Shown: positions 25,565 to 63,240 of the stretch, piece after piece
How positions within the stretch are numbered: position 1 is the stretch's first letter
Layout: each line of letters begins with the position of its first letter
Source: Pseudemcibacter aquimaris
GTDB lineage: Bacteria; Pseudomonadota; Alphaproteobacteria; Sphingomonadales; Emcibacteraceae
NCBI RefSeq assembly: GCF_028869115.1
Contig: NZ_CP079800.1
Location: forward strand, 434,001-498,000
Length of the DNA: 64,000 bases
Direction: 5' to 3'
Notes under the pieces: model-generated
Seen by the model: only the letters and a program-made list of their open reading frames with translations
What the model was told of the DNA's origin: nothing
The model's database searches: none
Position numbers and translations under genes: made by a program

Positions 25565-25592
25565 GTTTTACATACATTTTTATAAATTAAAA

Positions 25593-25620: not shown

Positions 25621-25637
25621 AATTTTATCTTTTGTGT

Positions 25638-25661: not shown

Positions 25662-25675
25662 CTCTTCTAATAGAA

Positions 25676-28522
25676 TTAGAAGTTAGCTTTAACACGTGCG
25701 TAGTATTTACCACCCATCCAGTCCATGCCACCGAAGTCCATGTACTGACGACCACGTAGACCGGAACGCTCAACAACTTCAGGATTCTTCTTAGGGAAGG
25801 TATTCATGATGTTGTCAGCACCGATTGTTACAGAGAACTGCTCATCAACATCATATGTGATGGCTAGGTCAAAGTAAACGCGGCTTGGGTTTTCGTCAAC
25901 GCGGTAAGCAGATAGGTCAGAAGTTGTACCAATGTAGTCACCGTTGTTGTCGAAACCAGTTACACGACGCATTGTTGACCACCAACGAGCACGACCCATA
26001 ACACTCACATTGTCCATGTTCCAGTTAGCTGTGAACGTAGCTTTGTGAGGGAAGTTGTTTAGGTTTTCTTCGTTGAATAGGTCATAGTCACTCATAGCGT
26101 GCTCTGTCACGTTAAGTTTAACGTGAGCATAAGCAGCTGTCAGACGTAGTGTACTGTCTTCAAGATCGATGTTGTGTGTAGCAACGATTTCGATACCACG
26201 AACACGACGCGCACCTTCGTTTACAAGGAAGTCAACACGGTTAAGTGTTTCCGCACCTGGGATACCAAGAGCTTCGATTTGAGCAAATTCAGCTGGGTAA
26301 TCATCACGGTCAAATGTTGGTGAGTCTGTGATAGAGTTACGTAGCTTGATTTGGAAGAAGTCAACAGTGATGTTTGTGTCATCACCTGGTGTCCAAACAA
26401 AACCAGCAGAAAGGTTGCGAGCTAGCTCAGGACCAAGTACCACGCCACCGAAGATTTGTGCTACTGGGCTATCTGCTACGAATGTACCAGACTGAGTTTG
26501 CGTACCGTCAGCACGGAAACCTGTACGTACCTGTGTATTGTTGATCTGACCCACTGTCGGAGCGTGGAAGCCTGTTGAGGCAGCGCCACGGAAAGCAAGT
26601 GTATCTTCGATCAACTGGTAACGAGTTGCGATTTTCCATGAGAAGTTGTCACCGAAGTCTGTGAAGTCTTCGTAACGACCAGCGATAGCGATATTGAAGT
26701 CTTCTGTTACGTCAGCATCAATATCAAGGTAAGCAGCCCAGTTTGAACGACGAGCGTCAAACACAACGCCTGGTGCGAAACCGCCGAAGCCGTCAGAACC
26801 AACGTTTAGGTCACCTGCAAGTGGACCTGGTCTCCATGAACCCCAACCGCTGTATGTGCGGCCAGAACGTTCGATTTCACCAGCACCAGTAATTTTGTAG
26901 TATTGGTCAGTACGGTATGTACCACCAAACGCTACGTTTAGGTTTTCAACAGCGTCTGTGTCTACTGTGTAAACAAAGTCAGCACCAACTTGACGTTCGA
27001 TGTTCACAAGTGAACCAATGTAGAACGCAGTAGGAGCAGCACCATAGTTGATTGAACCATCATCATTCATAGGCGCGCCCATTGATGGGTTTGCTGTGTC
27101 ATAGATGTAGTTGTCAACGCGGTTACGACCAACAGAACCCCAGATATCCCAACCTAGGCCATTGTCAAGTTCGCCTTTGAAACCAAGGTATGAACCTAGG
27201 TCTTGTGAATCCATTTCAAACCAAGGTGTGAAACCGTTTGGATGGATGTTACGAGCTTGGAAACCACCATTTGGATTTAGAGTACTTGGATGTAGAGGAG
27301 CTTGTGGGGCGATTGTTCTTAGCAGGTATGAATATTGGTCAGCCGCAGCTTGGCCATATGCATCTCTGTATGAGTTATAATCGAAAGATACTACGTCAAA
27401 CACACCGAAGTTATCACGTGTTGAACCATCAAATGTCGCACCAGCACCACCAGCACCTGAACGGTATGTTGATGGGAAGCTTGGACGATAGTTGAATGGC
27501 TCTTTGTGATACTTACGTGAGAAGTTACCAAATGCATATACAGATGAGTTCTCACCGATTTCCATTTCTGAGTTCCATGTTACAGTGAACTGTGTCTCAC
27601 GGTTAATACCGTAAGGAGCTACTGTATCAGGGTCTAGATCGCCTGGATCAGCAAATTCATATTGCCAACCTTGTGAGCCGTCCATACCTGGAAGACTGTA
27701 ACCGCTTTCGCCGTCTAGGAAGAATTGGTCAGCGAATTCACCGCTGTTACCCCAGTCAAGAAGAGCATCGTTACGTGTTGCACCTGAGTTTGCAGCTAGG
27801 AATGCAGAAACGTGAGCTTCTTGTGCATTGTATTTTTCAATGTGGTCAAGAGCAAACAGATGGTTTGTTGCACGATCTGTTGGATCAGTTGCACCATATG
27901 AAGCTGTTACTGTTAGGAAACCACGGTCAGCAAGTGAGATACCAGCTTTAGAAGCAAGTACGTATGAGAAACCGTCGCCTTCATAGTATTGACCGAAGTT
28001 AGCTTCAGCAGAAATACCTTCTGAGTCGTCAAGTGTTAGGTTAACAACACCAGCAACCGCGTCAGCACCGTACTGAGCAGCAGCACCGTCACGTAGGATT
28101 TCAAGGCTCTTAAGAGCGTTTACTGAAAGTGAGCCAACGTCAGCAGCCTGCCAACCACCGTAAGTGATGATTGCAGAACGGTGCATACGCTTACCGTTTA
28201 GAAGTGTAAGAACTTCACCTTGGTGTAGACCACGAAGTGATGAACTACGAACTAGTGAGTCACCATCGGAGATCGCATCACGTTCCACAGAGTAAGATGG
28301 AGATACAGCTTGCATCGCATCTTTCATGTTTAGTGATGGTGTAGCTTGAAGTTCAGCAGCTTGGATAACGTCAACTGGAACGTTTGAGTCAAGAGCCGTA
28401 CGACCCTTCACACGAGAACCAACCACTGTGATTGTATCTTCTTCTTGACCGTCTTGCGCAACCGCCATATCAGCGATTACAAGAGCAGGTAGAGAAGCAG
28501 ATAGAAGTAGTAATTTTTTCAT
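25676..28522 (-). CDS. TonB-dependent outer-membrane receptor, copy 1
   Basis: About 948 residues from the ATG at 28520-28522, which follows a GGGAGGAA ribosome site; the frame is open 11 codons further upstream but without a better site. Signal peptide: MKKLLLLSASLPALVIADMA followed by VAQDG. The plug domain has DTITVVGSR (TonB-box-like region), SSLRGLHQGEVLTLLNGKRM and EILRDGAAAQYGADAVAGVVN. The beta-barrel ends with MDWMGGKYYARVKANF, with the usual terminal Phe. It imports an unknown large substrate using TonB energy. Codon choice differs from neighbours (many GTT, ACA and CGT), suggesting high expression. Copy 2 at 29710-32556 appears to differ by a single residue. Confidence 0.95.
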   Translation of the reverse strand: MKKLLLLSASLPALVIADMAVAQDGQEEDTITVVGSRVKGRTALDSNVPVDVIQAAELQATPSLNMKDAMQAVSPSYSVERDAISDGDSLVRSSSLRGLHQGEVLTLLNGKRMHRSAIITYGGWQAADVGSLSVNALKSLEILRDGAAAQYGADAVAGVVNLTLDDSEGISAEANFGQYYEGDGFSYVLASKAGISLADRGFLTVTASYGATDPTDRATNHLFALDHIEKYNAQEAHVSAFLAANSGATRNDALLDWGNSGEFADQFFLDGESGYSLPGMDGSQGWQYEFADPGDLDPDTVAPYGINRETQFTVTWNSEMEIGENSSVYAFGNFSRKYHKEPFNYRPSFPSTYRSGAGGAGATFDGSTRDNFGVFDVVSFDYNSYRDAYGQAAADQYSYLLRTIAPQAPLHPSTLNPNGGFQARNIHPNGFTPWFEMDSQDLGSYLGFKGELDNGLGWDIWGSVGRNRVDNYIYDTANPSMGAPMNDDGSINYGAAPTAFYIGSLVNIERQVGADFVYTVDTDAVENLNVAFGGTYRTDQYYKITGAGEIERSGRTYSGWGSWRPGPLAGDLNVGSDGFGGFAPGVVFDARRSNWAAYLDIDADVTEDFNIAIAGRYEDFTDFGDNFSWKIATRYQLIEDTLAFRGAASTGFHAPTVGQINNTQVRTGFRADGTQTQSGTFVADSPVAQIFGGVVLGPELARNLSAGFVWTPGDDTNITVDFFQIKLRNSITDSPTFDRDDYPAEFAQIEALGIPGAETLNRVDFLVNEGARRVRGIEIVATHNIDLEDSTLRLTAAYAHVKLNVTEHAMSDYDLFNEENLNNFPHKATFTANWNMDNVSVMGRARWWSTMRRVTGFDNNGDYIGTTSDLSAYRVDENPSRVYFDLAITYDVDEQFSVTIGADNIMNTFPKKNPEVVERSGLRGRQYMDFGGMDWMGGKYYARVKANF

Positions 28523-29358
28523 ATCTAAAAATTCCTCCCAAAAAGCCAGTAACATGTGTCACATGACTGATTGATAGTTTATACTTAAAGGCTGAGATCA
28601 ATATCCCAACCTCGCGAATGACAAGATTGTTGCAATTAAAATGATAACCAAAAGGATATCCAAAATAACAGCAATCCTGCCAATAGGTGTAATTAGCAAT
28701 AATCAGAAAGTTTATTCATAAGGACCATTCGAGATGTTCTTTTTATGATTATATAGCAATGCTAAATGTTTAATTTTTCTAATTAATTGCTAGCCGATAC
28801 CATAAATTAATCGCAAAATGTTGGCTATTGGGGGATTCACCCTAATGCATAACTATGTGTTTGTTTGTTAGAGTCAATCGTCTTTGCATATTAAGTATAT
28901 TTTCGTTTGATAGAAAATTCCTCCAAATGATTGTATAGAAGACATCTTACTACCGTAAACGGACGAGTTCATCTCGTCCGTTTTAGTTTATGAGAAAGAT
29001 TTTATAATCTCTCGCTAAAGAAAATGTAATTTGCAAAGCGTAATCTGCTTTATTACTCTTTAAACGGGTAGGGGGGGCGATTGTTTCAATCTCACGTTTA
29101 AGTGATACGGTTTGATTGTGTAGATACTGCCAGTTTCTCATATGATTCCTTCAAGTTATTTTAATTGTTTTAAACTTAATAGGAAATATGCAGTTTTTAA
29201 TAATTTCTTAATAGGGGGATTCCCCCAATTGAGATTTGAGGGAGCTGTCGTGTAAATTTATAAGAAGATTATATACAAAATACAAGATATGATATATGAT
29301 AGATAGGTTAATAGTAGGGAAGAATTAAAGATCTATAAACAAGGGAAGTTAAAGCAAC
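28523..29358. promoter_or_regulatory. Long AT-rich intergenic region upstream of receptor copy 1 and of the luxR-type gene
   Basis: About 840 bases without a convincing gene. It holds a dyad CATGTGTCACATG (28553-28565) close to receptor copy 1, a motif GGGGGATTCACCC (28830-28842), a strong orphan hairpin (28957-28983) and a related palindrome GGGGGATTCCCCC (29214-29226) upstream of the small HTH gene. Promoters could not be placed confidently. Confidence 0.5.
28957..28983. terminator. Orphan terminator-like hairpin
   Basis: AAACGGACGAG and CTCGTCCGTTT form a perfect 11-bp stem with a 5-base loop, followed by a short TTA-rich stretch. No gene ends here on either strand, so it might end a small RNA or be a remnant. 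Confidence 0.5.
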
Positions 29359-29580: not shown

Positions 29581-29626
29581 AACTTAAAATAAAGAATATG
29601 TAGCATTTATATGTTGCGGATAAAAA

Positions 29627-29653
29627 AGCCCCCCTTGATTTCTCAAGGGGGGC
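29627..29653. terminator. Terminator between the luxR-type gene and receptor copy 2
   Basis: AGCCCCCCTTGA and TCAAGGGGGGCT with a short loop. It is the counterpart of the stem at 25593-25620; a base-pair change at the stem base is compensated (A-T to G-C), so the structure is kept. Confidence 0.9.
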
Positions 29654-29709
29654 TAATTTTATCTTTTGTGTTGTGAGCCACCGAAGCAGCTCACATTCTT
29701 CTAATAGAA

Positions 29710-32556
29710 TTAGAAGTTAGCTTTAACACGTGCGTAGTATTTACCACCCATCCAGTCCATGCCACCAAAGTCTAGGTATTGGCGACCACGTAGACCGGAA
29801 CGCTCAACAACTTCAGGATTCTTCTTAGGGAAGGTATTCATGATGTTGTCAGCACCGATTGTTACAGAGAACTGCTCATCAACATCATATGTGATGGCTA
29901 GGTCAAAGTAAACGCGGCTTGGGTTTTCGTCAACGCGGTAAGCAGATAGGTCAGAAGTTGTACCAATGTAGTCACCGTTGTTGTCGAAACCAGTTACACG
30001 ACGCATTGTTGACCACCAACGAGCACGACCCATAACACTCACATTGTCCATGTTCCAGTTAGCTGTGAACGTAGCTTTGTGAGGGAAGTTGTTTAGGTTT
30101 TCTTCGTTGAATAGGTCATAGTCACTCATAGCGTGCTCTGTCACGTTAAGTTTAACGTGAGCATAAGCAGCTGTCAGACGTAGTGTACTGTCTTCAAGAT
30201 CGATGTTGTGTGTAGCAACGATTTCGATACCACGAACACGACGCGCACCTTCGTTTACAAGGAAGTCAACACGGTTAAGTGTTTCCGCACCTGGGATACC
30301 AAGAGCTTCGATTTGAGCAAATTCAGCTGGGTAATCATCACGGTCAAATGTTGGTGAGTCTGTGATAGAGTTACGTAGCTTGATTTGGAAGAAGTCAACA
30401 GTGATGTTTGTGTCATCACCTGGTGTCCAAACAAAACCAGCAGAAAGGTTGCGAGCTAGCTCAGGACCAAGTACCACGCCACCGAAGATTTGTGCTACTG
30501 GGCTATCTGCTACGAATGTACCAGACTGAGTTTGCGTACCGTCAGCACGGAAACCTGTACGTACCTGTGTATTGTTGATCTGACCCACTGTCGGAGCGTG
30601 GAAGCCTGTTGAGGCAGCGCCACGGAAAGCAAGTGTATCTTCGATCAACTGGTAACGAGTTGCGATTTTCCATGAGAAGTTGTCACCGAAGTCTGTGAAG
30701 TCTTCGTAACGACCAGCGATAGCGATATTGAAGTCTTCTGTTACGTCAGCATCAATATCAAGGTAAGCAGCCCAGTTTGAACGACGAGCGTCAAACACAA
30801 CGCCTGGTGCGAAACCGCCGAAGCCGTCAGAACCAACGTTTAGGTCACCTGCAAGTGGACCTGGTCTCCATGAACCCCAACCGCTGTATGTGCGGCCAGA
30901 ACGTTCGATTTCACCAGCACCAGTAATTTTGTAGTATTGGTCAGTACGGTATGTACCACCAAACGCTACGTTTAGGTTTTCAACAGCGTCTGTGTCTACT
31001 GTGTAAACAAAGTCAGCACCAACTTGACGTTCGATGTTCACAAGTGAACCAATGTAGAACGCAGTAGGAGCAGCACCATAGTTGATTGAACCATCATCAT
31101 TCATAGGCGCGCCCATTGATGGGTTTGCTGTGTCATAGATGTAGTTGTCAACGCGGTTACGACCAACAGAACCCCAGATATCCCAACCTAGGCCATTGTC
31201 AAGTTCGCCTTTGAAACCAAGGTATGAACCTAGGTCTTGTGAATCCATTTCAAACCAAGGTGTGAAACCGTTTGGATGGATGTTACGAGCTTGGAAACCA
31301 CCATTTGGATTTAGAGTACTTGGATGTAGAGGAGCTTGTGGGGCGATTGTTCTTAGCAGGTATGAATATTGGTCAGCCGCAGCTTGGCCATATGCATCTC
31401 TGTATGAGTTATAATCGAAAGATACTACGTCAAACACACCGAAGTTATCACGTGTTGAACCATCAAATGTCGCACCAGCACCACCAGCACCTGAACGGTA
31501 TGTTGATGGGAAGCTTGGACGATAGTTGAATGGCTCTTTGTGATACTTACGTGAGAAGTTACCAAATGCATATACAGATGAGTTCTCACCGATTTCCATT
31601 TCTGAGTTCCATGTTACAGTGAACTGTGTCTCACGGTTAATACCGTAAGGAGCTACTGTATCAGGGTCTAGATCGCCTGGATCAGCAAATTCATATTGCC
31701 AACCTTGTGAGCCGTCCATACCTGGAAGACTGTAACCGCTTTCGCCGTCTAGGAAGAATTGGTCAGCGAATTCACCGCTGTTACCCCAGTCAAGAAGAGC
31801 ATCGTTACGTGTTGCACCTGAGTTTGCAGCTAGGAATGCAGAAACGTGAGCTTCTTGTGCATTGTATTTTTCAATGTGGTCAAGAGCAAACAGATGGTTT
31901 GTTGCACGATCTGTTGGATCAGTTGCACCATATGAAGCTGTTACTGTTAGGAAACCACGGTCAGCAAGTGAGATACCAGCTTTAGAAGCAAGTACGTATG
32001 AGAAACCGTCGCCTTCATAGTATTGACCGAAGTTAGCTTCAGCAGAAATACCTTCTGAGTCGTCAAGTGTTAGGTTAACAACACCAGCAACCGCGTCAGC
32101 ACCGTACTGAGCAGCAGCACCGTCACGTAGGATTTCAAGGCTCTTAAGAGCGTTTACTGAAAGTGAGCCAACGTCAGCAGCCTGCCAACCACCGTAAGTG
32201 ATGATTGCAGAACGGTGCATACGCTTACCGTTTAGAAGTGTAAGAACTTCACCTTGGTGTAGACCACGAAGTGATGAACTACGAACTAGTGAGTCACCAT
32301 CGGAGATCGCATCACGTTCCACAGAGTAAGATGGAGATACAGCTTGCATCGCATCTTTCATGTTTAGTGATGGTGTAGCTTGAAGTTCAGCAGCTTGGAT
32401 AACGTCAACTGGAACGTTTGAGTCAAGAGCCGTACGGCCCTTCACACGAGAACCAACCACTGTGATTGTATCTTCTTCTTGACCGTCTTGCGCAACCGCC
32501 ATATCAGCGATTACAAGAGCAGGTAGAGAAGCAGATAGAAGTAGTAATTTTTTCAT
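29710..32556 (-). CDS. TonB-dependent outer-membrane receptor, copy 2
   Basis: About 948 residues from the ATG at 32554-32556, with the same GGGAGGAA ribosome site, signal peptide, plug and terminal-Phe barrel as copy 1. By eye the protein differs only in RGRQYLDFGG against RGRQYMDFGG near the C-terminus. Its upstream DNA beyond about 50 bases is unrelated to that of copy 1 and contains tandem TTGCA-N4-TGCA elements, so the two genes can be expressed under different conditions while making the same receptor. The ligand is unknown. Confidence 0.95.
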   Translation of the reverse strand: MKKLLLLSASLPALVIADMAVAQDGQEEDTITVVGSRVKGRTALDSNVPVDVIQAAELQATPSLNMKDAMQAVSPSYSVERDAISDGDSLVRSSSLRGLHQGEVLTLLNGKRMHRSAIITYGGWQAADVGSLSVNALKSLEILRDGAAAQYGADAVAGVVNLTLDDSEGISAEANFGQYYEGDGFSYVLASKAGISLADRGFLTVTASYGATDPTDRATNHLFALDHIEKYNAQEAHVSAFLAANSGATRNDALLDWGNSGEFADQFFLDGESGYSLPGMDGSQGWQYEFADPGDLDPDTVAPYGINRETQFTVTWNSEMEIGENSSVYAFGNFSRKYHKEPFNYRPSFPSTYRSGAGGAGATFDGSTRDNFGVFDVVSFDYNSYRDAYGQAAADQYSYLLRTIAPQAPLHPSTLNPNGGFQARNIHPNGFTPWFEMDSQDLGSYLGFKGELDNGLGWDIWGSVGRNRVDNYIYDTANPSMGAPMNDDGSINYGAAPTAFYIGSLVNIERQVGADFVYTVDTDAVENLNVAFGGTYRTDQYYKITGAGEIERSGRTYSGWGSWRPGPLAGDLNVGSDGFGGFAPGVVFDARRSNWAAYLDIDADVTEDFNIAIAGRYEDFTDFGDNFSWKIATRYQLIEDTLAFRGAASTGFHAPTVGQINNTQVRTGFRADGTQTQSGTFVADSPVAQIFGGVVLGPELARNLSAGFVWTPGDDTNITVDFFQIKLRNSITDSPTFDRDDYPAEFAQIEALGIPGAETLNRVDFLVNEGARRVRGIEIVATHNIDLEDSTLRLTAAYAHVKLNVTEHAMSDYDLFNEENLNNFPHKATFTANWNMDNVSVMGRARWWSTMRRVTGFDNNGDYIGTTSDLSAYRVDENPSRVYFDLAITYDVDEQFSVTIGADNIMNTFPKKNPEVVERSGLRGRQYLDFGGMDWMGGKYYARVKANF

Positions 32557-32608
32557 ATCTAAAAATTCCTCCCAAAAAGCCAGTAACATAAGTCACATGA
32601 CTGATTGT

Positions 32609-48726: not shown

Positions 48727-48802
48727 GGGGCTATAGCTCAGCTGGGAGAGCGCCTCGCTGGCAGCGAGGAGGTCAGCGGTTCGATCCCGCTTAGCTCCAC
48801 CA
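48727..48802 (+). tRNA. tRNA-Ala (anticodon GGC)
   Basis: A 76-base cloverleaf with encoded CCA. The acceptor pairs GGGGCTA with TAGCTCC, the D arm is GCTC...GAGC, the anticodon stem is CCTCG/CGAGG with loop CTGGCAG (anticodon GGC at 48760-48762), and the T arm is AGCGG-TTCGATC-CCGCT. It reads GCC/GCU alanine codons. Confidence 0.96.
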
Positions 48803-48808
48803 AATAGA

Positions 48809-48845
48809 AAAGGACTTAGTCGAATTTGGCTAAGTCCTTTTTCTT
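48809..48845 (+). terminator. Terminator after tRNA-Ala
   Basis: AAAGGACTTAG and CTAAGTCCTTT form a long stem around TCGAATTTGG, followed by T residues. Confidence 0.85.
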
Positions 48846-48917
48846 TGTCGCGGGATCTTCTTTTATATGCGGCGCTGCGCGCAATGCGCTTTTGGCCCGC
48901 TTAGCGCTTTAATATTG

Positions 48918-48952
48918 AAAAAGCCCGCTCAATTTGAACGGGCTTTTTATTT
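48918..48952. terminator. Terminator at the end of the sulfotransferase operon
   Basis: AAAAAGCCCG and CGGGCTTTTT enclose a short loop just outside the stop codon of the 48955 gene. T runs occur on both strands, so it works for that gene and as a second stop for the tRNA transcript. Confidence 0.85.
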
Positions 48953-48954
48953 TT

Positions 48955-51114
48955 TTACACTGGAGAGGCATGTCCTAATGCCTTGATCAACGGGCCGAGA
49001 TATTTTTCATATCTGCGCCATTTTTCCATTGATGATTTATATATTGGTTTTCTGACCTGGGTCACGCTTGCTGTTCTGATTGAGCGTTTGTTTTTATGGA
49101 AATTTAGGCAGTCCTCGTGCCAATCAAGACCACAATGTGCGATCAGTGCTTTTGATTGTTCTTCTGGATTTGAAACCAGTTCTTCATAACAAAGTTCATA
49201 AAAACTACCCTCTGGCAGTACTGTACGCCAATGATCCATCAGTTCGACATAATTTCTGTAATATGTTCCCAGTTCGGTCAAATCATATGTTTGATATTGA
49301 TTGTGGCCAAACAGCCTTTGGAAACAAGAGATACATGTATCAAGGGCATTACGTTTAACATGAACGATTTTCGCATTAGGGAGTAACGTATGAATAAGCC
49401 CAACATAAAAATAGTTGGCGGGCATTTTATCCGTGATAAATTTTGCATCAGGTGCATGCGCCGTAATTCTTTTTACATATTCAACCGGGATATGTGAAAG
49501 CTGTTCGGGAGTTAAGGATGTCATTATATTTGGATAACGGTCCGTGCCTTCAAAATTAGGGATGCTTTCCAAAGATCCAGAAAAATCCTTCAATTCGCCG
49601 GCGCCAAATACATCCGGATGGCTGGAAATAATCTGTTCAGTTAGGGTTGTTCCTGATCTTGGTGATCCAAGAACAAAAATTGGTTTTGCAGATGGATCTG
49701 CATATTGTTTTAGGCTTTCTAGAAATTCCGGCGTAAAGACTTCTGCCGTTTTCTTGTAAGTCATAGTCATTTCTTCGCTGCTATATTCAAAAGTTTCCCG
49801 CTTCAAGGCGCAGGCTTTTAAATAATGCTCGAATGCTGTTTCATAGTTCTTTAAATCGTCATTGGTTTTGCCAAGCGCATAATGAAGCAACATTGTTTTC
49901 TTATCGGAAAGATCATCAATCTCTTTTTCGGCTTCCATAAGGGCAAGATATTCTTCGCTTCCTTCTTTCATTTTGATGGCGGAAACCAGATTGAAGAGGC
50001 TTTCAAGTTTTGCGCCATCTTCGGTTTCAAGTGCCATTCCTTTGCGGAAATTCTCTTCGGCTTCGCTCATTTTACCCTGATCAAGAAGCAATGATCCGCG
50101 CGCATTATAGGCGGACCCCAGTTCCGGATTAATTTTATTTGCGTTGTCGTAACATTCGTGCGCTTTTTCTTCCTCACCAAGGTTTACGAATACACGGCCA
50201 AGCATGGTATGGGCTTCTGCGCGATCATCTTCCGCGTTAATGGCGCGTTCGGTCGCAACCTTCGCAACGTCGTAATTTTGTTTTTCAAGCATAATGGCAG
50301 CAATTCCCATATGTGCGGAACAATGGTTGTTGTCTAACTTTGCTGCTTTTTGGAAAGCGGGAAGCGCTTTGTCAAATTCATCTTGTTGTAGCCATGCACG
50401 ACCTAGATTATTAAGTGCCTCTACATAATTCGGGCTTAAATTTACGGCCTTCTCCAAGTATGGAAGTGCTTCTTCAGCGCGGTTATTATCAACCAGCGTT
50501 GTACCCAGATTGTTCAAGCTTTCTAAGTAATTTGGATCAATTTCAAGTGCTTTTTTGTACCAAATTTCAGCATTTTCAAGATCCTTTTGTTCTTTATAAA
50601 TGCTGCCACGGTTGTTAAGTGATGAAAGCTGTTTTGGGTCAATTGTCAGGGCTTTCTTTTGATGGAGTTCAGCTTTTTCATAATTTTTCTGATCAAAATA
50701 TGCGATGCCAAGGTTGCCTTGGGCACTTGCTAATTTTGGTGCGATTTTAATGGCTTGTTTGCCATGATGAATGGCTTCATCAAGTTTGCCAATTTGTCTG
50801 AACATTTCACCGCGATTGCTATGGAATAGAGCATTTTTATTATCGCCTTCAATGGCCTTACCTAGAAGTTCAGTTGCCATTTCTGTCTTGCCAACCTGAT
50901 GAGCAATCACACCAAGCAAATTAAAGGCTGGCGGATATCCGGGACTTGCAGCCAGAATTTTGTTAAGCATTTGTTCTGCTTGTTGAAGCTGACCTTGCGT
51001 TTGAAGCTGGGAGGCATGTTGCATGGCCTGTTCAAGAGAAATTTGTTTGCTTGGTCCAGGGGTTGGAACCGTAGGTTTATTTGCTGGTGGCGCTTGCCAT
51101 TTACCTTGTGTCAT
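48955..51114 (-). CDS. TPR-repeat sulfotransferase, larger paralogue
   Basis: A 719-residue protein. Residues about 30-370 are some ten tetratricopeptide repeats (AQGNLGIAYFDQKNYEKAEL, EALNNLGRAWLQQDEFDKAL). A sulfotransferase domain follows from about 475: PIFVLGSPRSGTTLTEQIIS is the PAPS 5'-phosphosulfate loop, and HVKRNALDTCISCFQ the 3'-phosphate site. The C-terminus RKPIYKSSMEKWRRYEKYLG is shared with the paralogue at 51679. The family sulfates a bound polypeptide or glycan; the acceptor is unknown. No signal peptide is seen, so it is cytoplasmic. It overlaps the IalB-type gene stop. Confidence 0.9.
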   Translation of the reverse strand: MTQGKWQAPPANKPTVPTPGPSKQISLEQAMQHASQLQTQGQLQQAEQMLNKILAASPGYPPAFNLLGVIAHQVGKTEMATELLGKAIEGDNKNALFHSNRGEMFRQIGKLDEAIHHGKQAIKIAPKLASAQGNLGIAYFDQKNYEKAELHQKKALTIDPKQLSSLNNRGSIYKEQKDLENAEIWYKKALEIDPNYLESLNNLGTTLVDNNRAEEALPYLEKAVNLSPNYVEALNNLGRAWLQQDEFDKALPAFQKAAKLDNNHCSAHMGIAAIMLEKQNYDVAKVATERAINAEDDRAEAHTMLGRVFVNLGEEEKAHECYDNANKINPELGSAYNARGSLLLDQGKMSEAEENFRKGMALETEDGAKLESLFNLVSAIKMKEGSEEYLALMEAEKEIDDLSDKKTMLLHYALGKTNDDLKNYETAFEHYLKACALKRETFEYSSEEMTMTYKKTAEVFTPEFLESLKQYADPSAKPIFVLGSPRSGTTLTEQIISSHPDVFGAGELKDFSGSLESIPNFEGTDRYPNIMTSLTPEQLSHIPVEYVKRITAHAPDAKFITDKMPANYFYVGLIHTLLPNAKIVHVKRNALDTCISCFQRLFGHNQYQTYDLTELGTYYRNYVELMDHWRTVLPEGSFYELCYEELVSNPEEQSKALIAHCGLDWHEDCLNFHKNKRSIRTASVTQVRKPIYKSSMEKWRRYEKYLGPLIKALGHASPV

Positions 51115-51665
51115 TATTCGTTATTCATTTCCTGATTTTCAAGACGTGCTTGTCTTAGTTCATTTTGTCTTTGTATCATGGTGCTGTATGCCTGTCTAAA
51201 GCCACGCATGTTCAAGGCTACATTGGCAGTGTTTTGATTTAACAATGTATAGTTAAATTTCATTTCTGGTACCGATTGCATTGTGGCTAGCATATCATCT
51301 GCAATATTCGCTGTAGCCATACATCCATTTGCTAAGCATGTACGGTAGCCAATCTTCACTGGGTTATTTTCTCCGGCTTGTAATGTTAAGCCGCCCGCTA
51401 ACTGAATACCGAGGGGGACAGTGACTTGAAGAGTGGCAGGAGTGTCATTTGAAGCCTTGTTTACTGTCATTGATAAAAAAAGATGTTGGTTCTCGTCGGA
51501 GCGCATCGTTTGCGTTGCAAAACATCTAGGTGGTTGATTAGGTTGGACATTTGGACAATTAATGACCCATCTTACATTATTTTCTGATGTTGCATCTGTG
51601 TCTTGTGCATGTGCAAATGTTGTGAACATGGCACTTGCTACAATGACGGGTAAAAATATTTTCAT
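51114..51665 (-). CDS. IalB-family exported protein
   Basis: About 183 residues from the ATG at 51663-51665; the frame opens 10 codons earlier, but MKIFLPVIVASAMFTTFAHA is a clean signal peptide from this Met. The mature part has the 'invasion associated locus B' pattern: WVINCPNVQ with cysteines, RCFATQTM, VTVPLGIQLAGGLTLQAGEN and YRTCLANGCMATANI. These are periplasmic or surface-associated proteins of unclear biochemical role. It lies between two TPR-sulfotransferase genes and overlaps the start of the downstream one, so all three form one operon. Confidence 0.85.
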   Translation of the reverse strand: MKIFLPVIVASAMFTTFAHAQDTDATSENNVRWVINCPNVQPNQPPRCFATQTMRSDENQHLFLSMTVNKASNDTPATLQVTVPLGIQLAGGLTLQAGENNPVKIGYRTCLANGCMATANIADDMLATMQSVPEMKFNYTLLNQNTANVALNMRGFRQAYSTMIQRQNELRQARLENQEMNNE

Positions 51666-51678
51666 AACAAATTCATTT

Positions 51679-53367
51679 CTATTCGGGAGCAACAATATCT
51701 TTAAGTGGTTTTAGATGATCACCAAAATTTTTCCATCTTTCTACCGATGATTTATAAATTGGTTTTCTAACTTGTGCAACGCTCGCTGTGTGGACGGTGC
51801 GTTTGTTTTTGTGGAATTCCAGACATTTATCATCCCATTCCAAGCCCACAAATTTAATGATACGTTTTGCTTGATTTTCAAGATCATCAACGACTTTTTC
51901 ATAATGAACGTCAATCAATCTGTTTTTCGGTAATACGGAATGCCAGTGTTTTATTAAATCCTGATAACGATTGTAATATCGTCCTAGCTCTTCAAGGTTA
52001 TAGGCGAAATGCATGGTTTGGTTGAATAGGCGCCCGTAATTGGAAAGGCAACTATCCATAGGATTGCGTTCAGTATTTATTATATGGGCGCCGGGTAAAG
52101 CTTTGGCGATAATTCCCGCATAATGAAAATTAGCAGGCATTTTATCAACGATTCTTTTGGCATCCGGCTCAAGTAAACGAATTCGTCTAATGTAATTTTC
52201 ACCGATTTCTTTGATATCGTCATCACTTAGTTTTTCATAGTCATTTGGGAAAATATCGAGTTTTTCATTAATGACTTTTGACATGGTGTCTAATTCACCG
52301 GCGCCAAATACATTATCATGACTACACAGAATTTGTTCGATTAATGTTGAACCGGAACGTGGCATGCCAACTACAAATATCGGTGTTGGGTCATCACTTT
52401 TCTTTTTGCGACTGCCTTTGAAATATTCTTTATTGAAAATTGTTTTTAATTGTTCGGTTATTCCAATGGCGCGTTTTTCGTTGAATTTAAAGGTCCTGCG
52501 GTGAGCGGTATTGCCTTTTTCAAAAAGATCAAATGCAGCATCATAATTTCCAATATCTTCATATGCTTTACCAAGTGCAAAACAAAGTTTGACACGCTTG
52601 TCGGCGGGAAGAGCTGCACTGTTCCTTGCTATAGCTTCTAATTGGGTAATGTGTGCATCATCTTCTTCATAGTTTTTAATCGTGGACAAATTATAATGCG
52701 GTTCTACAAAGAGAGGACGAGCTTTAATCGCTGCTTCGAAGTGTATTTTTGCATTTTCGACATCGCCTTCGGCAAGCAAGATAGCTGCCAGGTTGTTTTG
52801 TGCTTCCGGGTGATTTGCATTAATTTTTACGGCGTTGGCATACGCATGTTTTGCGCGTTCTTGTAATCCGGAATTTTCCATAATCGATCCAAGATTATTG
52901 TATGCAAGACCGTTGTTTGGATTTAATTCGATGGCTTTGTTGTATGCGGTAATGGCCTTTTTCGAATTGCCAAGTGCTGCCAAGGCTGTGCCTGCAATAT
53001 AATGAAAATGAGAAACATTTGGGTTAATTTTTAATGCATGCTCAATGGCAATTAAGCCTCCTTTGGGATTGGCGTTGTTGCAGAGCACTTCCGCGAAGTC
53101 ACAATGATATTGTGCGTTTGAAGAATCAAGGCTTATGGCTTTGTTTAACATATCAATGGCAATTTTGTTTTTGTTAACACGCGCTGCCATTCGACCTAGC
53201 ATATGATAGGCTGGGTGAAATTTTTTATTTGCATTGATTATATCGTTGCAGATTTTTTCGGCTTGTGCCAATTGGCCGGATTCAGCGAGTGTTTTTGCTT
53301 TCGTGAAGGCGTCCTTAATACTGAGTATTTGCCCGCTACCCGTTGCAGAGTCTGCTTTCTTAATCAC
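51679..53367 (-). CDS. TPR-repeat sulfotransferase, smaller paralogue
   Basis: A 562-residue protein with about six tetratricopeptide repeats in residues 30-260 (LAYNNLGSIMENSGLQERAK, PEAQNNLAAILLAEGDVENA). The C-terminal sulfotransferase domain has the PAPS loop PIFVVGMPRSGSTLIEQIL, then NTERNPMDSCLSNYG and the end RKPIYKSSVERWKNFGDHLK. It is clearly a paralogue of the gene at 48955, with fewer TPR units. It is the first gene of the minus-strand operon. Its start is divergent from the autotransporter, 275 bases apart, with a TGACA-AAG-TGTCA dyad between. Confidence 0.9.
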   Translation of the reverse strand: MIKKADSATGSGQILSIKDAFTKAKTLAESGQLAQAEKICNDIINANKKFHPAYHMLGRMAARVNKNKIAIDMLNKAISLDSSNAQYHCDFAEVLCNNANPKGGLIAIEHALKINPNVSHFHYIAGTALAALGNSKKAITAYNKAIELNPNNGLAYNNLGSIMENSGLQERAKHAYANAVKINANHPEAQNNLAAILLAEGDVENAKIHFEAAIKARPLFVEPHYNLSTIKNYEEDDAHITQLEAIARNSAALPADKRVKLCFALGKAYEDIGNYDAAFDLFEKGNTAHRRTFKFNEKRAIGITEQLKTIFNKEYFKGSRKKKSDDPTPIFVVGMPRSGSTLIEQILCSHDNVFGAGELDTMSKVINEKLDIFPNDYEKLSDDDIKEIGENYIRRIRLLEPDAKRIVDKMPANFHYAGIIAKALPGAHIINTERNPMDSCLSNYGRLFNQTMHFAYNLEELGRYYNRYQDLIKHWHSVLPKNRLIDVHYEKVVDDLENQAKRIIKFVGLEWDDKCLEFHKNKRTVHTASVAQVRKPIYKSSVERWKNFGDHLKPLKDIVAPE

Positions 53368-53433
53368 TTAAATATTCCCTAATTCTAATATAAAGCTAAC
53401 TGTTTATGTTTATTGTCATAAATTAAAGTTATG

Positions 53434-53446
53434 TGACAAAGTGTCA
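53434..53446. promoter_or_regulatory. Dyad TGACA-AAG-TGTCA before the autotransporter and sulfotransferase operon
   Basis: It is the same 13-base perfect inverted repeat as at 48105-48117, again followed by a T run. It lies in the divergent region between the two surface-related transcription units, 67 bases before the sulfotransferase start. Confidence 0.5.
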
Positions 53447-53642
53447 TTTTTTTAACGGAAACTGAATAATTTTGTGAAGCTATCATTCAAAAATTTGAAT
53501 TTAAAGAAAAATTTCATATTTTAATGCTTGAAATTAGAATGATTATTGTTTTAGTATCCCGAACGATAAATGTATTATTTTTATAAAATTTTATACAAAC
53601 CGATAATAACACTAATTCCTGGTTAGGGGAGCATATATTCTA

Positions 53643-54101
53643 ATGTCTGATATTAAGAACACCACAAAGACATCAAAATCCGTAAAAACATTCATGATGG
53701 CGACTACCGCACTTGTTGCGGTGCCGATGGTTTTACCGGCAACGGTAAATTACGCGGCGGCGGATAGTTTTTCCGTTACGTCTGGTTTTACAAACTTGCT
53801 ACAGGAAAACCTTGGTGATGGTGAAACGGGTTATATCGAAAATGGGTCTGCGCAAAATGGCGATGTGACGATTTCCGGTAATACTAATGTGACGCTTACT
53901 AACGAAGGATTGGTTACTGGTAAGATTGTGGTGGATAACACTGGTGCAGGATCAACAGGTGTGTCGATTACCAATGACACCAGCGCAACGATTAGTAATT
54001 CACAACAAGCTATTCGTGTGACATCAGGTAGTGATATTTCCGGCGGCATTGACAATGATGGTGTAATCGTTGGTGACCAGCAGGCGATTTTGGTTGATTG
54101 A
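53643..54101 (+). pseudogene. N-terminal fragment of the autotransporter adhesin, ended by in-frame TGA
   Basis: It encodes 152 residues: a long basic N-region and a signal peptide (FMMATTALVAVPMVLPATVN, ending YAAADS), then the first passenger repeats (GSDISGGIDNDGVIVGDQQA). It stops at TGA 54099-54101. The same frame continues without another stop to 61694, and the residues on both sides (AILVD, then SGDISGG) read as one uninterrupted repeat. This is therefore the 5' part of one gene of about 2,683 codons split by a nonsense codon. It carries the only export signal of the pair. Confidence 0.85.
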
Positions 54102-57100
54102 TCAGGTGATATTTCAGGCGGTATAGCCAATAATTCCAGCGGTACGATTAGCGGTTTTTATGCGGTGGCTGTAATTTCTGGTGGTGATATTTCCGGTGGT
54201 GTGGTGAACAACGGAAATATTAATACAGGTCCAAGCGGTGTTTATAACGGTATTTATGTTGATGAAGCATCAATTTCTGGCGGTATTGAGAACTACGGCA
54301 CCATTGGTGGTGTTGTTGGTATCTATATGGATGGATCAACAAGTTCGATTTCAAACGGTATCGTAAATACTGGAACAATTAATGCATCAATGTACGGCAT
54401 TAGTATCGAAAGCGGTACTGTCAATGGTGGCGTATCGAATACCGGGCTGATTATGTCTGATACAGGTGTTAACGTTCTGGAAGGTGGCTCTATTGTTGCG
54501 CCAACGACTGGTCCTAACACTGGTGTTGCTATTAACAATGTGGGTTCAGGTTCGATTCTGTCGACAAAAACTGGTGTGCTTGTTGCAGGTGGTCAGATTG
54601 ATGGTGATATTGTTAACTCTGGTGTGATCGCGAACGGTGAATCTGGTATGGCTATCGTAGAAGATGGTCAAGTTGCGGGTGATATTGTTAATCATTCCAG
54701 TGGCGTTATTGCTGGTTCCGAGCACGGTATTGTTGTGGCATCTGGTTCTGGTGTTACAGGTGCAATTAATAACGCGGGCCGCATTGCGGTTAATGATCCG
54801 GAAGGTGTAGCCGTATTGCTCGCTGGTGATGCTTCAGTGAATAGCATCACAAATAGTGCTGGCGGCACGATTGCCGGTGGTGATAGCGGACCATTTGCAG
54901 GCGGTGTTTCTGTGTTGTTTGGTTCCGAAGTTACAGAAGGCATCACAAATGCTGGTGATATCTATGGTATGGTTGGTGTTGGAACTGCGATGGGTTCAAA
55001 TATTGGTAGCATCAATAACCAAACAGGCGGTGAAATTTACGGTGATCTTGCTGGTATTATTGTAACGGCTGGTTCAAGTGTTGGGACGGCAGATATCGAA
55101 GGTAATCCTGTCGGTAATGCGATTACCAATGCGGTTGGCGGTTCAATTGGTGTTGGCCATAATATTGATGACGGCACTAGATTAGCCGATATCGGTATCG
55201 ATGTTGAAGGTGGTGCGATCATCGGAAATATTGATAACTCAGGATTAATCGTTGGTGAAAGATCTGGTATTTCATTTGGCGGTGGTTCAACAATGGATGG
55301 CGATATTGTTAACCGCGGCACGATTGATGGTGAAGCCGGTATTGTTGTGGCGCAAAGCTCAACAATTGATGGTGATATTATCAACGAAGCTGGCGGCGCT
55401 ATTTCGGGTGGTACAGGTCCTGGAATTTATATCAGTACCTCTTCTGATGTAACGGGAACAATTATCAATAGCGGTTCAATCCAGGCAATTAATCCGGAAA
55501 GTGCGGATAATGCAATTCTGATTGATGGTGGTACATCTGGTTCCGATGTTGGTGTTACAAACAAAACTGGTGGTGACATCGAAGGTAATGTCACAATGGG
55601 TACAGGTGATTATCGCGCCGAGGGTGGTACTGTTGAAGGAAACGTTACTGGCCATGGTGGCGAATTTGTATTTGCTGACGGTGCGGCTGGTGCATCTGGC
55701 GTATCTGGTACGGTTTCTGGTTTTGGTTCAATTGGTATTGATGCGGATACAACGGTTACTAATAACGCAGGTGGCTTAAACCTAAACGGTTTTGCAGATG
55801 GCGAGATCAATATTTATGACGGTACTCTTGTTAACCAAACAGGCCCAGCTCTTGTAAGAGATATTGTTGTTGGCTCGGGCGTGACAAATGCTGGGATTTC
55901 TAACACAGGCACGATTTCTGCGGATATTTCTGTGATGGGTGGTGATCTTTCTGGTGGGTTAACAAACTCAGGTGTAATCAACGCAGGTAGTACGCATACA
56001 GCACTTTATGTGGATAGTAGCGGTGATGTTTCTGGTGGTATTACGAACTCAGGATTGATCACAGGTTACCGCGCTATTGTGGTTGATTCGTCATCCTCAA
56101 TTTCTGGCGGTATTGTGAATAATATTGGTGGTGCAATTCACGGGGATTCTGCTGGATTATTCATTAGTAATGCGTCCACTGTTACTGGTGGTGTTACAAA
56201 CCATGGGACAATCGGTTCTTACGGTACAGCGCCATCAAACCCGGCGCGATATGGTATAGTTTTACGCGAAGGAAGTGAAATAAATGGCGGTATCCTTAAT
56301 ACCGGTGATATTGATGCGAATAGCACAGCATTATTCATAGATAGCTCAACAGTGAATGGCGGCATCACCAACAGCGGTACAATTACTTCTAGTGTGTCGA
56401 TGGCAGTTAGCGTAAGAGGATCATCGGTTGGTACAATCACTAATGCAGAAGGTGGCATGATTTCCGGTACTTCAGGTATCGTTATCGAAAGTGGTTCAGT
56501 AGATGGTTCATCCGTAACAAGTATCATTAATGCTGAAGGCGGTATGATTCGAGGCACATTAGACAATGGGATCGATATAAGTGGTTCTGGAACTACTGTT
56601 GGCAGCATCACAAACGCGGGTACGATTTCCGGTGATGATCAAGGTATTTATGTTTCAAGACAAGGGTCAATCACAGGTGGCATCAATAACAGTGGTCGTA
56701 TCGAAGGTGATCATGCAATCCGCGTAGATGGCACCGATATCGAAGGTAACCCAACAACGGTTGCTGGCGGTATTATGAACCAAGTGGGTGGTGAAATTGA
56801 CGGCGATACAGCTGGTATCTTCGTGAGCAATGGCGGTTCCATCACGGGTGGTGTTACGAACTATGGTGATATTACAGGTGACCGTTACGGTATTCGTTTA
56901 AGTAATGACCTTGAAGGTATTCCGCTAAGTAGTCATACAACGGGATCATCTATCACGGGTGGTATCAATAATGCGCTTGGTGCAACAATTTCTGCGACAG
57001 ATACAGCAATTTCAATTGATGATGGCGCGTCAATCACAGGCGGCATCACAAACAGTGGTCGTATTGAGGCGGAATCAGGTGCGGCAATTAGTATTCGCGA

Positions 57101-59850
57101 TGAATCAACGGTTGATTTCATTACGAACGCTGAAAGCGGTGTGATTTATACACCGGACTATAACAGTGCAACTGGTATCAGAGTTGATAGCAGTTCAACT
57201 GTTACTGGTGCAATTACCAACTACGGCACAATCGATACCGAAGGTGTCGGTATCAAGATCGAAGATAGTTCACAGGTTCAAGGCGGTATCGCGAACCATG
57301 GCACAATCGATACTGAAGGTGCATCAATTGTAATTAATAGAAGTTCAGATGTTCTAAATGGTATTACAAACTCTGGTTTAATCCGTTCAGAAGATGATTC
57401 TGGTATTGTTGTTGATAACGAATCCGGTATCAGTAACGCATCCGGATACGGTATTAATAACAGTGGTACAATCGACGCATATTCAACTGGTATCGAAATT
57501 AGAGATGGTTCAACAGTTAGCGGCGGTATTAATAATACGGGTACGATCTTTGGTGATGATCGCGGTATTTATGTTGATACAGATTCAGAAGGTGGTGTTT
57601 CAAGTATCACTGGCGGTATTGCAAATGCAGTAAGCGCGACAATCAGTGCAACGAATACAGCCATTAAGATTAATGACGGCTCAACAGTAACTGGCGGTAT
57701 TACCAACAGCGGTAATATTAATGCTGAAGAACATGCAATTTACGTTGATGACGAATCATCAGTGGATTTCATCACCAACCATGGCAATATCTTCATTACA
57801 GGTTCATCGTCTTGGGATGCAGCGATCCTGATTGAGGATACAGCAACAATCACCGGTGCGATTACAAATAACGGTACAATTTCTGCACCTTCTGGTGATG
57901 CGGCAATTAGAATTGCATCTTCATCAGAAGTACTTGGCGGTATTGTTAATAATGGTAAGATTTATGGCGATGACTATGCCATCGACGTTGAAGGATCTTC
58001 AGTCGTAACAAACGGCATTACCAATAATGCATCTGCAACAATTAGTGCATCAAGCTCTGCGATCAGAGTTGCTAGCAATTCATCAGTAACGGGCGGTATC
58101 ACAAACAGTGGTGATATTATTTCAACTGATAATGATGCAATCCAACTTGATACTGAAGGTTCGGTTGACTTTATCCTGAATACGGAAAGTGGCCTGATTG
58201 ATGGTTACTCTGCTGGTATCGATATGGATGATACATCAACGGTTACTGGCGCCATTACCAACCATGGTGACATTATTGGTGAAAGTGGCGGTATTAATAT
58301 CCGTAACGGTTCAATGGTGGGTAATGCAGAATCTGGTGGTATTATTAATACTGGTCTAATTTCTGCGACTACATCTGGACAGGGTATCGATCTTGAAGAT
58401 GGTGCATCAGTTACTGGTGGTATCACTAACAGCGGTACGATCCAAGGTTACTCAACCGGTATCGAAATTGAATCCGCATCAAGCGTAACTGGCGGCATTA
58501 CCAACAGTGGTAAAATCATTGGTATGAATAGCCATGGTATCAAGCTAGAATCTGATATCGAAGGGACACCTTCAACGATTTCCGGCGGTATCAATAACCT
58601 TGCTGGCGGCACGATTTCTGGTAGCAGCAATGCGATCTGGATTACTAATGGTTCCGTTGTTAATGGCGGTATTACCAATAGCGGTTTGATTAAGGGTTCT
58701 TATGGTATCTATATGGATACTGAGGGCGGTGTCATTCTTCCGCCACCTCCTCCTCCGCCACCCCCAGCATCACTTGCTCCGGAAGCGGCACTAATTGGTG
58801 ATCCTGATCCTTCAGAATTGCATGGCGGTATTGTAAACCAAGTTACTGGTACAATTTCAGCAACGAATGAAGCGATTAAACTTGATGATGGTTCAATTCT
58901 GACTGGCGGTATTACAAACCATGGTACGATTGTTAGTTCTGATAATGATGCAATTGAAATTGATGATGGATCAACAGTAGACTTTATCACGAACGCAGCT
59001 GGCGGTGATATCACAGCCTATAGCACAGGTATTCAGATCGATTCTGGAAGTCGTGTTACAGGCGCGATTACCAATGCTGGCTACATTGATGCTGAAGTTG
59101 GTATTGCGGTAACAAGCAGTTCAAACGTCGAGGGCGGTATTGTAAACACCAATGTCGGTACAATCAGTGCCAGGTTTAATGGTATTTACACATCAAGTTC
59201 TACTGTAACTGGCGGCATTGTTAACAGTGGTTATATTAATGCAGAATCCGGTATCAATATTGATGGTCGTTCCATTGTCGACAGCGTTACGAACGCTGCT
59301 GGCGGTACGATTAATGCTGATATTGCTATTCACATTGAATCAGGAAGTACTGTAACCGGCGCTGTTTCAAATCATGGTACGATTAGCGACGGAAGCTCAG
59401 GCGTTGTCGTAAGCAGCACTTCAGATATTGAAGGCGGTGTCATAAATACAGGCATGATCGATGTTAGCTCTGCTGGTATTCGTGTTACGTCCTCTTCTGA
59501 TATTTCAGGTGGCATTAACAATAGCGGAACAATTTCTGGCGGACATTATGGTATCTACGTAACAAACACTTCAGATATCTCTGGTGGTGTAACAAACAGC
59601 GGAACAATATTCGGTGGTGATGCTGGTATCTCAGTAGATGATCCATCTGATATTTCTGGTGGTATTACGAACGAAGATGGCGGTGTCATTGATGGCGGCG
59701 CAGGAAGAGCGATCGAAGTGCTTGCAACATCTGATATCTCTGGTGGTGTTATGAATATGGCTGGCGGTGTTATTACCGGTTCAACAGCCATATATGTTGA
59801 TGGAACAAGTGACATTACTGGTGACATTGATAACTCCGGTACCATCAATG
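53860..59850 (+). repeat. Degenerate passenger repeats of the autotransporter
   Basis: Dozens of units on the pattern 'SxxxGGIxNSGTIxxxxxGIxVD', about 55-75 bases each, with a longer superunit adding FITNxxG. DNA-level variation is high and no two neighbouring units are identical by eye, so there is no sign of very recent expansion. Confidence 0.75.
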
Positions 59851-61694
59851 GTAACGGCGGCGATGCGATCTTGATTGATAATGCCGCAGCGGGTGTAAAT
59901 GTAGTGAACAACGCTTCGGGTATCATTAATGGTGATATCTCAATGGGTGCTGGTGATGTTACATCTGCTGGTATGATTAACGGCGATGTTATGATGAATG
60001 ACGGCACATTGACTGTTGATGGTGGCAATATCGTTGGCGCCATTACAGGTGGCGCAGCTGGTACATTTAACATTAACGCTGACCTAAGTGGTGCAACATC
60101 TGTTGATGGTTTTGGCACAATGAATGTTAATATGGGTAACCTGATGGTTGCTGGTGACTTTGGTCAAACAACAACAATCGGTGATGTTAATGTTGCAGCT
60201 GGTGCGAATATCGAAATGAATGGCGGTAGCTTCAGTTCTGCGTCCATCACTAACTCCGGCACGGTAACAATTCCTGCCAATGAAACACTTGATGTAACAG
60301 GTGATTATACTCAAGTGGGTGATGGTACGGTTAATATCGGTATCGATGGTACGGATCATGGTCAAATGACTGTAGGCGGAAATGCTGATCTATCAGCAAA
60401 TGATAGCCTTCAGGTATCAGCGGATAATCTTCCGTTTGCAGCGACAACAACATATCAAGATGTAATTGATGCAACGGATGTATTATCTGGTGACATTATG
60501 GTTGATGATCTAAATGACAACGTAATGTATACCTTCGAAGCGGTAGAAGATGCAGACGGTAATGTTGACCTTATCGCGACACTGAACGAAGTTGAAACAG
60601 TGCTGACACCAAATGCATCTGCACCAACACTTGACGTGGCTGATGCTGTTGATGATTTGGTTGATGAAAATATGGGAGATGATGAGGTCGGTGACCTGAT
60701 TAGTGCGTTGAATGATATTTCTGATGCAGGTGATCGTGAAGATGCAGTTGATACACTTCAATCAGTAATGCCAGGTGCTGACCTTCGTATGGGTGAAGAA
60801 AGCATCATGAATTTTGCTGGTATCATCAGCGGACAAATTGGTGTTGATATTGATCCTGGTAACAATCTATGGGTAAGACCATTTGGCGGAAGTGATAGAC
60901 AGAAAACTCGTCTTGGTGTCGATGGCTTTAAATCCAAAGATTACGGAGTAGCATTCGGTTTCGATAAAGATTTCGATGATATGCGTGTCGGAATCGCGGC
61001 TTCATTCGCTGAAACAACTGTTGATGGCGAAGGTAGCTTTACTGGTGGCAGACTAGAGGTTGAAACGAAGCAAATCGCGGGTTACGCACGTAAGAATATC
61101 GGTAATGCATACATTGGTGTGATTGCGGGTTACGGTGACAGTGATTATGAAAGCTCTCGTAGAATTCAAGTGGGATCATATGCTGCCACAGCAATGGGTG
61201 ATTACTCTGGCTCACAAGTTCATGCGAAAGCTGACATGGGTCATAGATTTGCCTTTGGTGACAATGGTTCATTTACTCCAATTGTGAGCTTGCACTATGG
61301 TAAAATCGATGTTGATACATACTCTGAAACAGGAGCAGGTAATTTATCACTGACAGTGCTTGAGCATTCACTAGAAACATTAAAGGCAAGTGTGGGCGGT
61401 AGATTTGTACCAACAATCACTGGTTCAGATAGCTCAACCATTACACCATATGTTGAAGCACATATGTCATACGACCTGCTGGATAACGGTGTTAATGTGA
61501 CATCACGCTTCACAAGTGGTACTGCAACATTCTTGTCAATTGGTAACGATAAATCCCGCTGGATGGGTACTGTCGGTGCAGGCTTGAATATTCAGACTTC
61601 AGAAAATATCTCAATTAACGTTGGATATAATGGTGACTTTGCAAGTGGCTATACAAGCCATAACGGTCAAGCAACATTTAGAGTTAAGTTCTAA
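54165..61694 (+). pseudogene. Autotransporter adhesin: passenger repeats and beta-barrel, downstream of the nonsense codon
   Basis: A 2,509-residue open frame, in phase with 53643-54101. The first possible start here is a GTG at 54165 inside a repeat, without a ribosome site or signal peptide, so it is unlikely to be a real start. Residues 1 to about 1,950 are degenerate GGI-x-NSGTI repeats expected to form a beta-helix passenger. Nine consecutive prolines occur near residue 1,526. The C-terminal 290 residues or so are an autotransporter barrel (LWVRPFGGSDRQKTRLGVDG, terminal FRVKF). No other disruption is seen, so the lesion is recent, read through, or a sequence error. Confidence 0.85.
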
Positions 61695-61716
61695 TAGACT
61701 AGAAAATAATAAGAAG

Positions 61717-61746
61717 AAAGCCGACCCATTGGGTCGGCTTTTTTTA
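61717..61746. terminator. Terminator after the autotransporter
   Basis: AAGCCGACCC and GGGTCGGCTT pair around a 2-4 base loop, with TTTTTT after it. It is positioned between the autotransporter and the convergent tldD gene. Confidence 0.88.
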
Positions 61747-61794
61747 TGGAAAAATTATAATGTGATTGAAATTAGATTTATATATTAAAGCTTA

Positions 61795-63240
61795 TTAAAA
61801 ATCTGTGCCGCCCACAGTAATACCGTTTAAGCGAAGCGTAGGTTGCCCGACACCAACTGGAACAGATTGTCCGGCTTTGCCGCAAATTCCAACACCATTA
61901 TCAAGTTTGAGGTCATTACCAATTGCGGTAATGCGTTTTAGAGCATCAGGTCCATTGCCGATCAGTGTCGCCCCTTTAACGGGTGCATCAATTTTACCGT
62001 TCTTTACCTTATAGGCTTCAGTACAGCTGAAAACAAATTTACCGTTGGTAATATCAACCTGACCACCCCCAAAATTAACGGCATAAAGGCCGTCTTTAAC
62101 ACCAGCCAAAATTTCTTCAGGTGATTGATCGCCACTTAACATATATGTATTGGTCATGCGTGGCATGGGTTGGTGTGCATAACTTTGGCGTCTTCCGTTG
62201 CCGGTTGATTCCACACCCATAAGGCGGGCATTCATGCGGTCTTGCATATATCCAACAAGAATGCCGTCCTCAATTAACGTTGTGCAATTGGTCGACGTGC
62301 CTTCGTCGTCAATACTTAATGAACCGCGGCGGTTTTCTAGAGTGCCGTCATCAACAACTGTTACGCCTTTTGCAGCGATTTGTTCACCCATAAGACCAGC
62401 AAAGGCAGACGTCCCTTTGCGGTTGAAGTCGCCCTCAAGGCCATGTCCGATGGCTTCATGAAGAAGGACGCCGGGCCATCCTGGCCCAAGAACAACATCC
62501 ATTTCACCAGCTGGGGCAGGAACGCTATCCAGATTTAATATTGCTTGTCTGATGGCATCATCGGTTTGTCTTTTCCAGTTTTCTTCGGATAAGAGTTCGG
62601 TGTATGTGTATCTTCCACCTGCGCCTTCGTAACCGCTTTCCATGCGGTCCCCGTCTTTTGCAACGACGCTGACATTTAACCTGACGAGCGGTCTGATATC
62701 TTGAACGCGATGACCACCAGGTCTGATAATTTCAACGACTTGCCATTCACCCGCTATTGAACAGCTGACTTGGCAAACTTTTGGATCTCTAGAACGGGCA
62801 TATTCATCAATTTCTTCAAGAAGTCTGATTTTATCTTTGAATGCTACACCCCCAAGCGGGTTTTCGTCGCTATATAGTTTTTTGTTAGTTCGGATCGGTG
62901 GAATGGCAAGTGTGCCGCCTGAACCTGACTTAATACTACTGACTGTGTCTGCCGCACGTTTAAGTGATTCTTTATTTATTTCCGAAGAATGTGCGAATCC
63001 GGTGACTTCGCCCAGTATACTTCTTAATCCAAAACCCTTTGACGTATCATATGCGGCATTTTTTAGCCTGCCATCATCAAATGAGAAAGTTTCAGATTGC
63101 GAATATTGTAAATATAGTTCGCCGTCATCCATGCCATGCAAGGCTTCATCGACAATGCGCTGTGTCTCTAATGATGAAATATCAGAATCATCGCTAGATT
63201 CTGCAAAAAAGTGAGAATTTTCGTCTGAAATTATGGTCAT
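61795..63240 (-). CDS. tldD: Metalloprotease TldD
   Basis: A 481-residue subunit of the TldD/TldE protease that processes modified peptides such as microcin B17 and assists CcdA degradation in E. coli. The zinc motif HEAIGHGLEGDF is at about residue 262. Other blocks are TSKGFGLRSILGEVTGFAHS, GYEGAGGRYTYTELL and CGKAGQSVPVGVGQPTLRL at the C-terminus. No TldE partner is in the window. It is divergent from coxB, across about 350 bases with two FNR-type boxes. Confidence 0.95.
   Translation of the reverse strand: MTIISDENSHFFAESSDDSDISSLETQRIVDEALHGMDDGELYLQYSQSETFSFDDGRLKNAAYDTSKGFGLRSILGEVTGFAHSSEINKESLKRAADTVSSIKSGSGGTLAIPPIRTNKKLYSDENPLGGVAFKDKIRLLEEIDEYARSRDPKVCQVSCSIAGEWQVVEIIRPGGHRVQDIRPLVRLNVSVVAKDGDRMESGYEGAGGRYTYTELLSEENWKRQTDDAIRQAILNLDSVPAPAGEMDVVLGPGWPGVLLHEAIGHGLEGDFNRKGTSAFAGLMGEQIAAKGVTVVDDGTLENRRGSLSIDDEGTSTNCTTLIEDGILVGYMQDRMNARLMGVESTGNGRRQSYAHQPMPRMTNTYMLSGDQSPEEILAGVKDGLYAVNFGGGQVDITNGKFVFSCTEAYKVKNGKIDAPVKGATLIGNGPDALKRITAIGNDLKLDNGVGICGKAGQSVPVGVGQPTLRLNGITVGGTDF

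Follow-up and report, generated by a model that had tools for sequence, protein, structure and literature searches.

A single in-frame TGA in an otherwise open giant autotransporter gene of Pseudemcibacter aquimaris

Two described systems come closest to the locus reported here. The first comprises the classical (type Va) autotransporters, for which the structures of pertactin and Antigen 43 have been solved. The second comprises bacterial genes that carry one in-frame stop; it has been proposed that single stops of this type are widespread in otherwise intact or conserved genes and that they are frequently tolerated, and most such events were concluded to be short-lived and likely deleterious (PMC7918605). 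Translation past stop codons has been quantified in E. coli reporters, where TGA is the leakiest stop, readthrough mostly inserts Trp, and basal TGA readthrough at one permissive position amounts to 0.7–6%, depending on stop and context (PMC11126739).

Here we analyze a 64,000-nucleotide stretch of the P. aquimaris genome (the window), in which a very long autotransporter frame is interrupted by one TGA. The initial annotation had offered three readings of this codon: a recent nonsense mutation, leaky readthrough, or a base-call error. Our results are best accounted for by the first and do not favor the second, and the third is the main rival.

The interrupted frame and its predicted product

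The whole frame occupies 53643–61694 on the forward strand. Its translation has 2,684 positions and contains stops only at positions 153 and 2,684, in agreement with the claim of a single in-frame TGA, located at 54099–54101 (forward strand); since the rest of the frame is open, the accompanying claim that the remaining codons carry no lesion is also upheld. An ORF list renders the gene as a 152-aa frame followed by a 2,509-aa frame starting at a downstream GTG. Codon scores are coding-like on either side of the TGA (12.8 and 19.3 bits over 60 codons). At the 3′ end of the frame, an autotransporter beta-barrel (PF03797; 60867–61631, forward strand; E = 6.5e-51) forms the C-terminal 255 residues of the protein, corresponding to residues 2256–2510 of the downstream part, and the match passes the cut-off and covers positions 1–255 of the 255-position profile. 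Given this terminal barrel and the 2,530 codons that stay open past the TGA, chance can be ruled out as an origin of the downstream frame.

By inspection, the N-terminal region (53643–53765, forward strand; MSDIKNTTKTSKSVKTFMMATTALVAVPMVLPATVNYAAA/DS) has the features of a signal peptide: a basic n-region, a hydrophobic stretch and an Ala-x-Ala motif near residue 40. The TGA separates this region from the barrel, as had been noted from the sequence. By architecture, the protein is a classical (type Va) autotransporter. It had also been called an adhesin; the autotransporter half of that description stands, while the adhesin role is a guess at function.

The passenger (53766–60866, forward strand) consists of about 46 degenerate repeats of roughly 25 residues, recognizable by anchors of the form GG[IV]xN, with no near-identical copies. 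Anchors at residues 134, 159 and 185 are spaced by 25 and 26 residues, so the repeat stays in phase across the TGA, as had been proposed. The residue that the other repeats carry at this point is variable, Ser (15/45) and Asp (12/45) being the commonest. The passenger repeat most similar to the one with the TGA matches it at 38 of 63 bases (at most ~60% identity), and TRF found no tandem array in the passenger. This divergence bears on two ideas about how the stop might be reversed. Intragenic repair from near-identical repeats was rejected, the passenger repeats being too divergent. Reversible switching, in which recombination between repeats would move the stop in and out, could in principle draw on ~46 related repeats within the same gene, but an identity of no more than ~60% over 63 bases and the absence of a TRF array leave too little for efficient homologous exchange, and we find this explanation barely credible.

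Residues 41–340 were modeled with AlphaFold2 without an alignment, the TGA being treated as an amino acid. The model is all-beta (pTM 0.79), and its confidence peaks around the TGA (pLDDT ~86–95), which is model residue 113 and falls just past a strand (107–111), in a predicted turn. A Foldseek search with the modeled piece gave no significant match (best E = 0.14); the low-scoring list consists mostly of beta-helix proteins and includes pertactin and Ag43. The passenger is thus predicted to be a beta-helix. Near codon 1700 (around 58750), nine to ten consecutive prolines (ILPPPPPPPPPASLAPEAALIGDPDPSELHGG) break the repeat array, a stretch unlike the remaining passenger in character.

The autotransporter is probably not the only giant exported surface protein encoded in the window. 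A gene at 6334–11811 specifies a protein of 1,825 aa with cadherin-like/Big domains and RTX calcium-binding repeats (Cadherin_4, Big_9, HemolysinCabind), and this product is probably a second one.

Readthrough and recoding of the TGA

We examined whether the TGA could be decoded as an amino acid. A selenoprotein was rejected: the SelB profile search of the genome returned nothing above cut-off, the tRNA-Sec search found none (the best match, just below threshold, is a tRNA-Ser-TGA), and a SECIS-like hairpin is absent. A recoding hairpin was likewise rejected, as the sequence downstream of the TGA shows no structure (z = +0.88; 168 of 200 shuffles fold at least as well). Reassignment of TGA is at odds with its use as a normal stop, which ends 6 of the 38 genes in the window and 13 of 94 long ORFs in a 464-kb sample of the genome; with an intact gene for RF2, and with no UCA-anticodon tRNA among those inspected (150 of 184 first-look candidates scored), this possibility was also discarded. 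Within the limits of this tRNA list, the genome lacks dedicated recoding machinery.

The RF2 gene is whole and encodes the catalytic loop RASGAGGQ, with Ala at the position of the less efficient Thr246 of E. coli K-12. The base 3′ of the autotransporter TGA is T, and a T following the stop raises termination efficiency in an E. coli reporter library, where it is the most favorable context (PMC11126739). There is no mark of a dedicated readthrough site at this codon. The suggestion of leaky or regulated readthrough accordingly finds no backing in the SelB, tRNA-Sec and (incomplete) UCA tRNA searches, the intact RF2, the TGAT context or the unstructured downstream sequence. Some background readthrough is always possible, and a trace of full-length protein could be made.

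A stronger proposal is that low-level readthrough is functional, the TGA being kept because it limits the amount of a surface protein that is costly to make, and Trp being the residue inserted. In support of this idea, the reporters show TGA to be the leakiest stop, decoded chiefly as Trp (PMC11126739), in-frame stops are proposed to be often tolerated (PMC7918605), and the predicted turn at this codon might accommodate a different residue. The TGAT context, the efficient-type RF2 and the lack of any suppressor tRNA or recoding structure seen here all argue against it, as does the verdict of PMC7918605 on the fate of most such stops, and conservation of the TGA has no support. We therefore regard functional readthrough as highly improbable. 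As for the TGA acting as a maintained leaky brake, by which a few per cent readthrough would yield few very large surface proteins, perhaps in some cells only, we consider it likewise highly improbable. Were readthrough to be shown, the gene would illustrate how a stop codon can meter a giant exported protein in nature.

Rarity, age and genomic setting of the interruption

The genome is a single contig of 3,369,470 bases, 100% complete with 0.45% contamination. Interrupted genes were surveyed coarsely in the window plus 20 evenly spaced stretches of 20 kb (464 kb in all), using a strict coding-score cut-off that retained 131 gene-like frames. Scanning for coding sequence on both sides of one in-frame stop returned the autotransporter TGA and one further site (L176 near 16244), which proved to be an ordinary boundary between two genes. 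No other gene interrupted like the autotransporter was found in the 464-kb sample; evidently, interrupted genes and errors do not abound in this genome. The genome's two other PF03797 autotransporters are uninterrupted, with open frames of 1,108 and 1,525 residues.

These results bear on the main rival, namely that the organism has an intact gene and the TGA is a consensus error in the assembly. One stray error would look much the same, as one substituted base in 8 kb of frame that is otherwise perfect and as the sole interruption of its kind found in the 464-kb sample, and mis-polishing can affect repetitive passenger sequence. Against this stand the quality of the assembly, with its one 3.37-Mb contig and intact sampled genes, and the rule that long-read consensus sequence contains fewer substitution errors than indels. 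Mis-mapping of the repeat that contains the TGA is also unlikely, because the repeats are divergent and form no TRF array. On balance, we judge a consensus error unlikely.

If the stop is real, the state of the rest of the gene limits its age. Stops would be made by 2.4% of all single substitutions in the autotransporter gene. Because no second lesion is present in 2,684 codons, neutral divergence since the TGA arose is bounded at less than ~1.5% (95% bound, from stops alone), or at 0.3–0.5% when indels are included and an indel:substitution ratio of 0.05–0.1 is assumed. Either the TGA arose very recently, or it is an error or a tolerated stop.

The gene lies in a variable 13-kb segment (48803–61794) that carries a TPR-sulfotransferase gene, an IalB-like gene, a second TPR-sulfotransferase gene and the autotransporter. 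The segment is bordered by a conserved tRNA-Ala (48727–48802) and a conserved tldD/pmbA gene (61795–63240), whose protein is 85–91% identical in the nearest Emcibacteraceae/Kordiimonadaceae metagenome genomes; these neighbors mark the host as a marine alphaproteobacterium, probably one of the Emcibacteraceae. In three relatives, the interval between these borders measures 0.8 kb (L049), 1.5 kb (L053) and 1.8 kb (L054), and it looks like a variable locus. Its cargo differs by relative, with a methyltransferase-like gene in L053 and an acyltransferase-like gene in L054 (both named by eye). Since the 13-kb segment is missing at the same interval in all three relatives, the autotransporter is accessory. 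Across 881 genomes spanning the genus, family, order and class, and in a set of named genomes, no orthologue was found; the matches are to barrels only, at ~20–32% identity, with the best barrel at ~32%. Searches with the barrel gave no identity above 28% among the plasmid matches listed and no match in viral contigs.

Two further features of the surroundings were observed. At 48955–53367, the two TPR plus sulfotransferase genes flank the IalB-like gene and are oriented divergently from the autotransporter; speculatively, the substrate of these genes could be a product that is exported or located at the surface. Elsewhere in the window, a TonB-dependent receptor gene occurs as two direct copies (25586–28573 and 29620–32607; 959 aa each) that lie ~1 kb apart. 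Their identity of 99.6% over 2,988 bases points to a tandem duplication that is very recent or has undergone gene conversion.

A proposed recent nonsense allele and its relation to known systems

We propose that the gene is a very recent nonsense allele of a full-length accessory autotransporter, which is the best explanation at a probability of roughly 0.7. One nonsense substitution would have been acquired very recently in codon 153 of a species-specific accessory gene. Translation would then end after the putative signal peptide and about 110 passenger residues; the barrel would not be produced from the original start, and any downstream re-initiation would yield a product without a signal peptide. 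For these two reasons, the strain is predicted to be null for the surface protein. We infer that the change to TGA is real and recent and that it abolishes the protein. Such a loss is expected to be cheap, because the gene sits in a variable segment. If the allele is real, a costly accessory surface protein has been lost through a single point mutation and caught before other decay. The finding matters mainly for annotation: pipelines will list a pseudogene or two ORFs, hiding an otherwise complete autotransporter of 2,683 residues.

Compared with the classical type Va autotransporters, the protein shares a long repetitive passenger with a predicted beta-helical fold and, at its C terminus, a PF03797 barrel that ends in FRVKF; its N terminus looks, by inspection, like the signal peptide of that class. 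It differs in that its passenger is very long. Neither Pfam nor NCBIfam holds a family covering the repeats, a sequence search of the PDB gave no match, and the Foldseek result above was not significant. Compared with the genes described in PMC7918605, the autotransporter is without orthologues, in the genomes searched, by which conservation of the stop or purifying selection could be judged. It resembles those genes in having one stop in a frame that is otherwise intact and free of frameshifts and deletions. Since single in-frame stops are documented there as widespread, the autotransporter TGA can be viewed as a further example of a known phenomenon.
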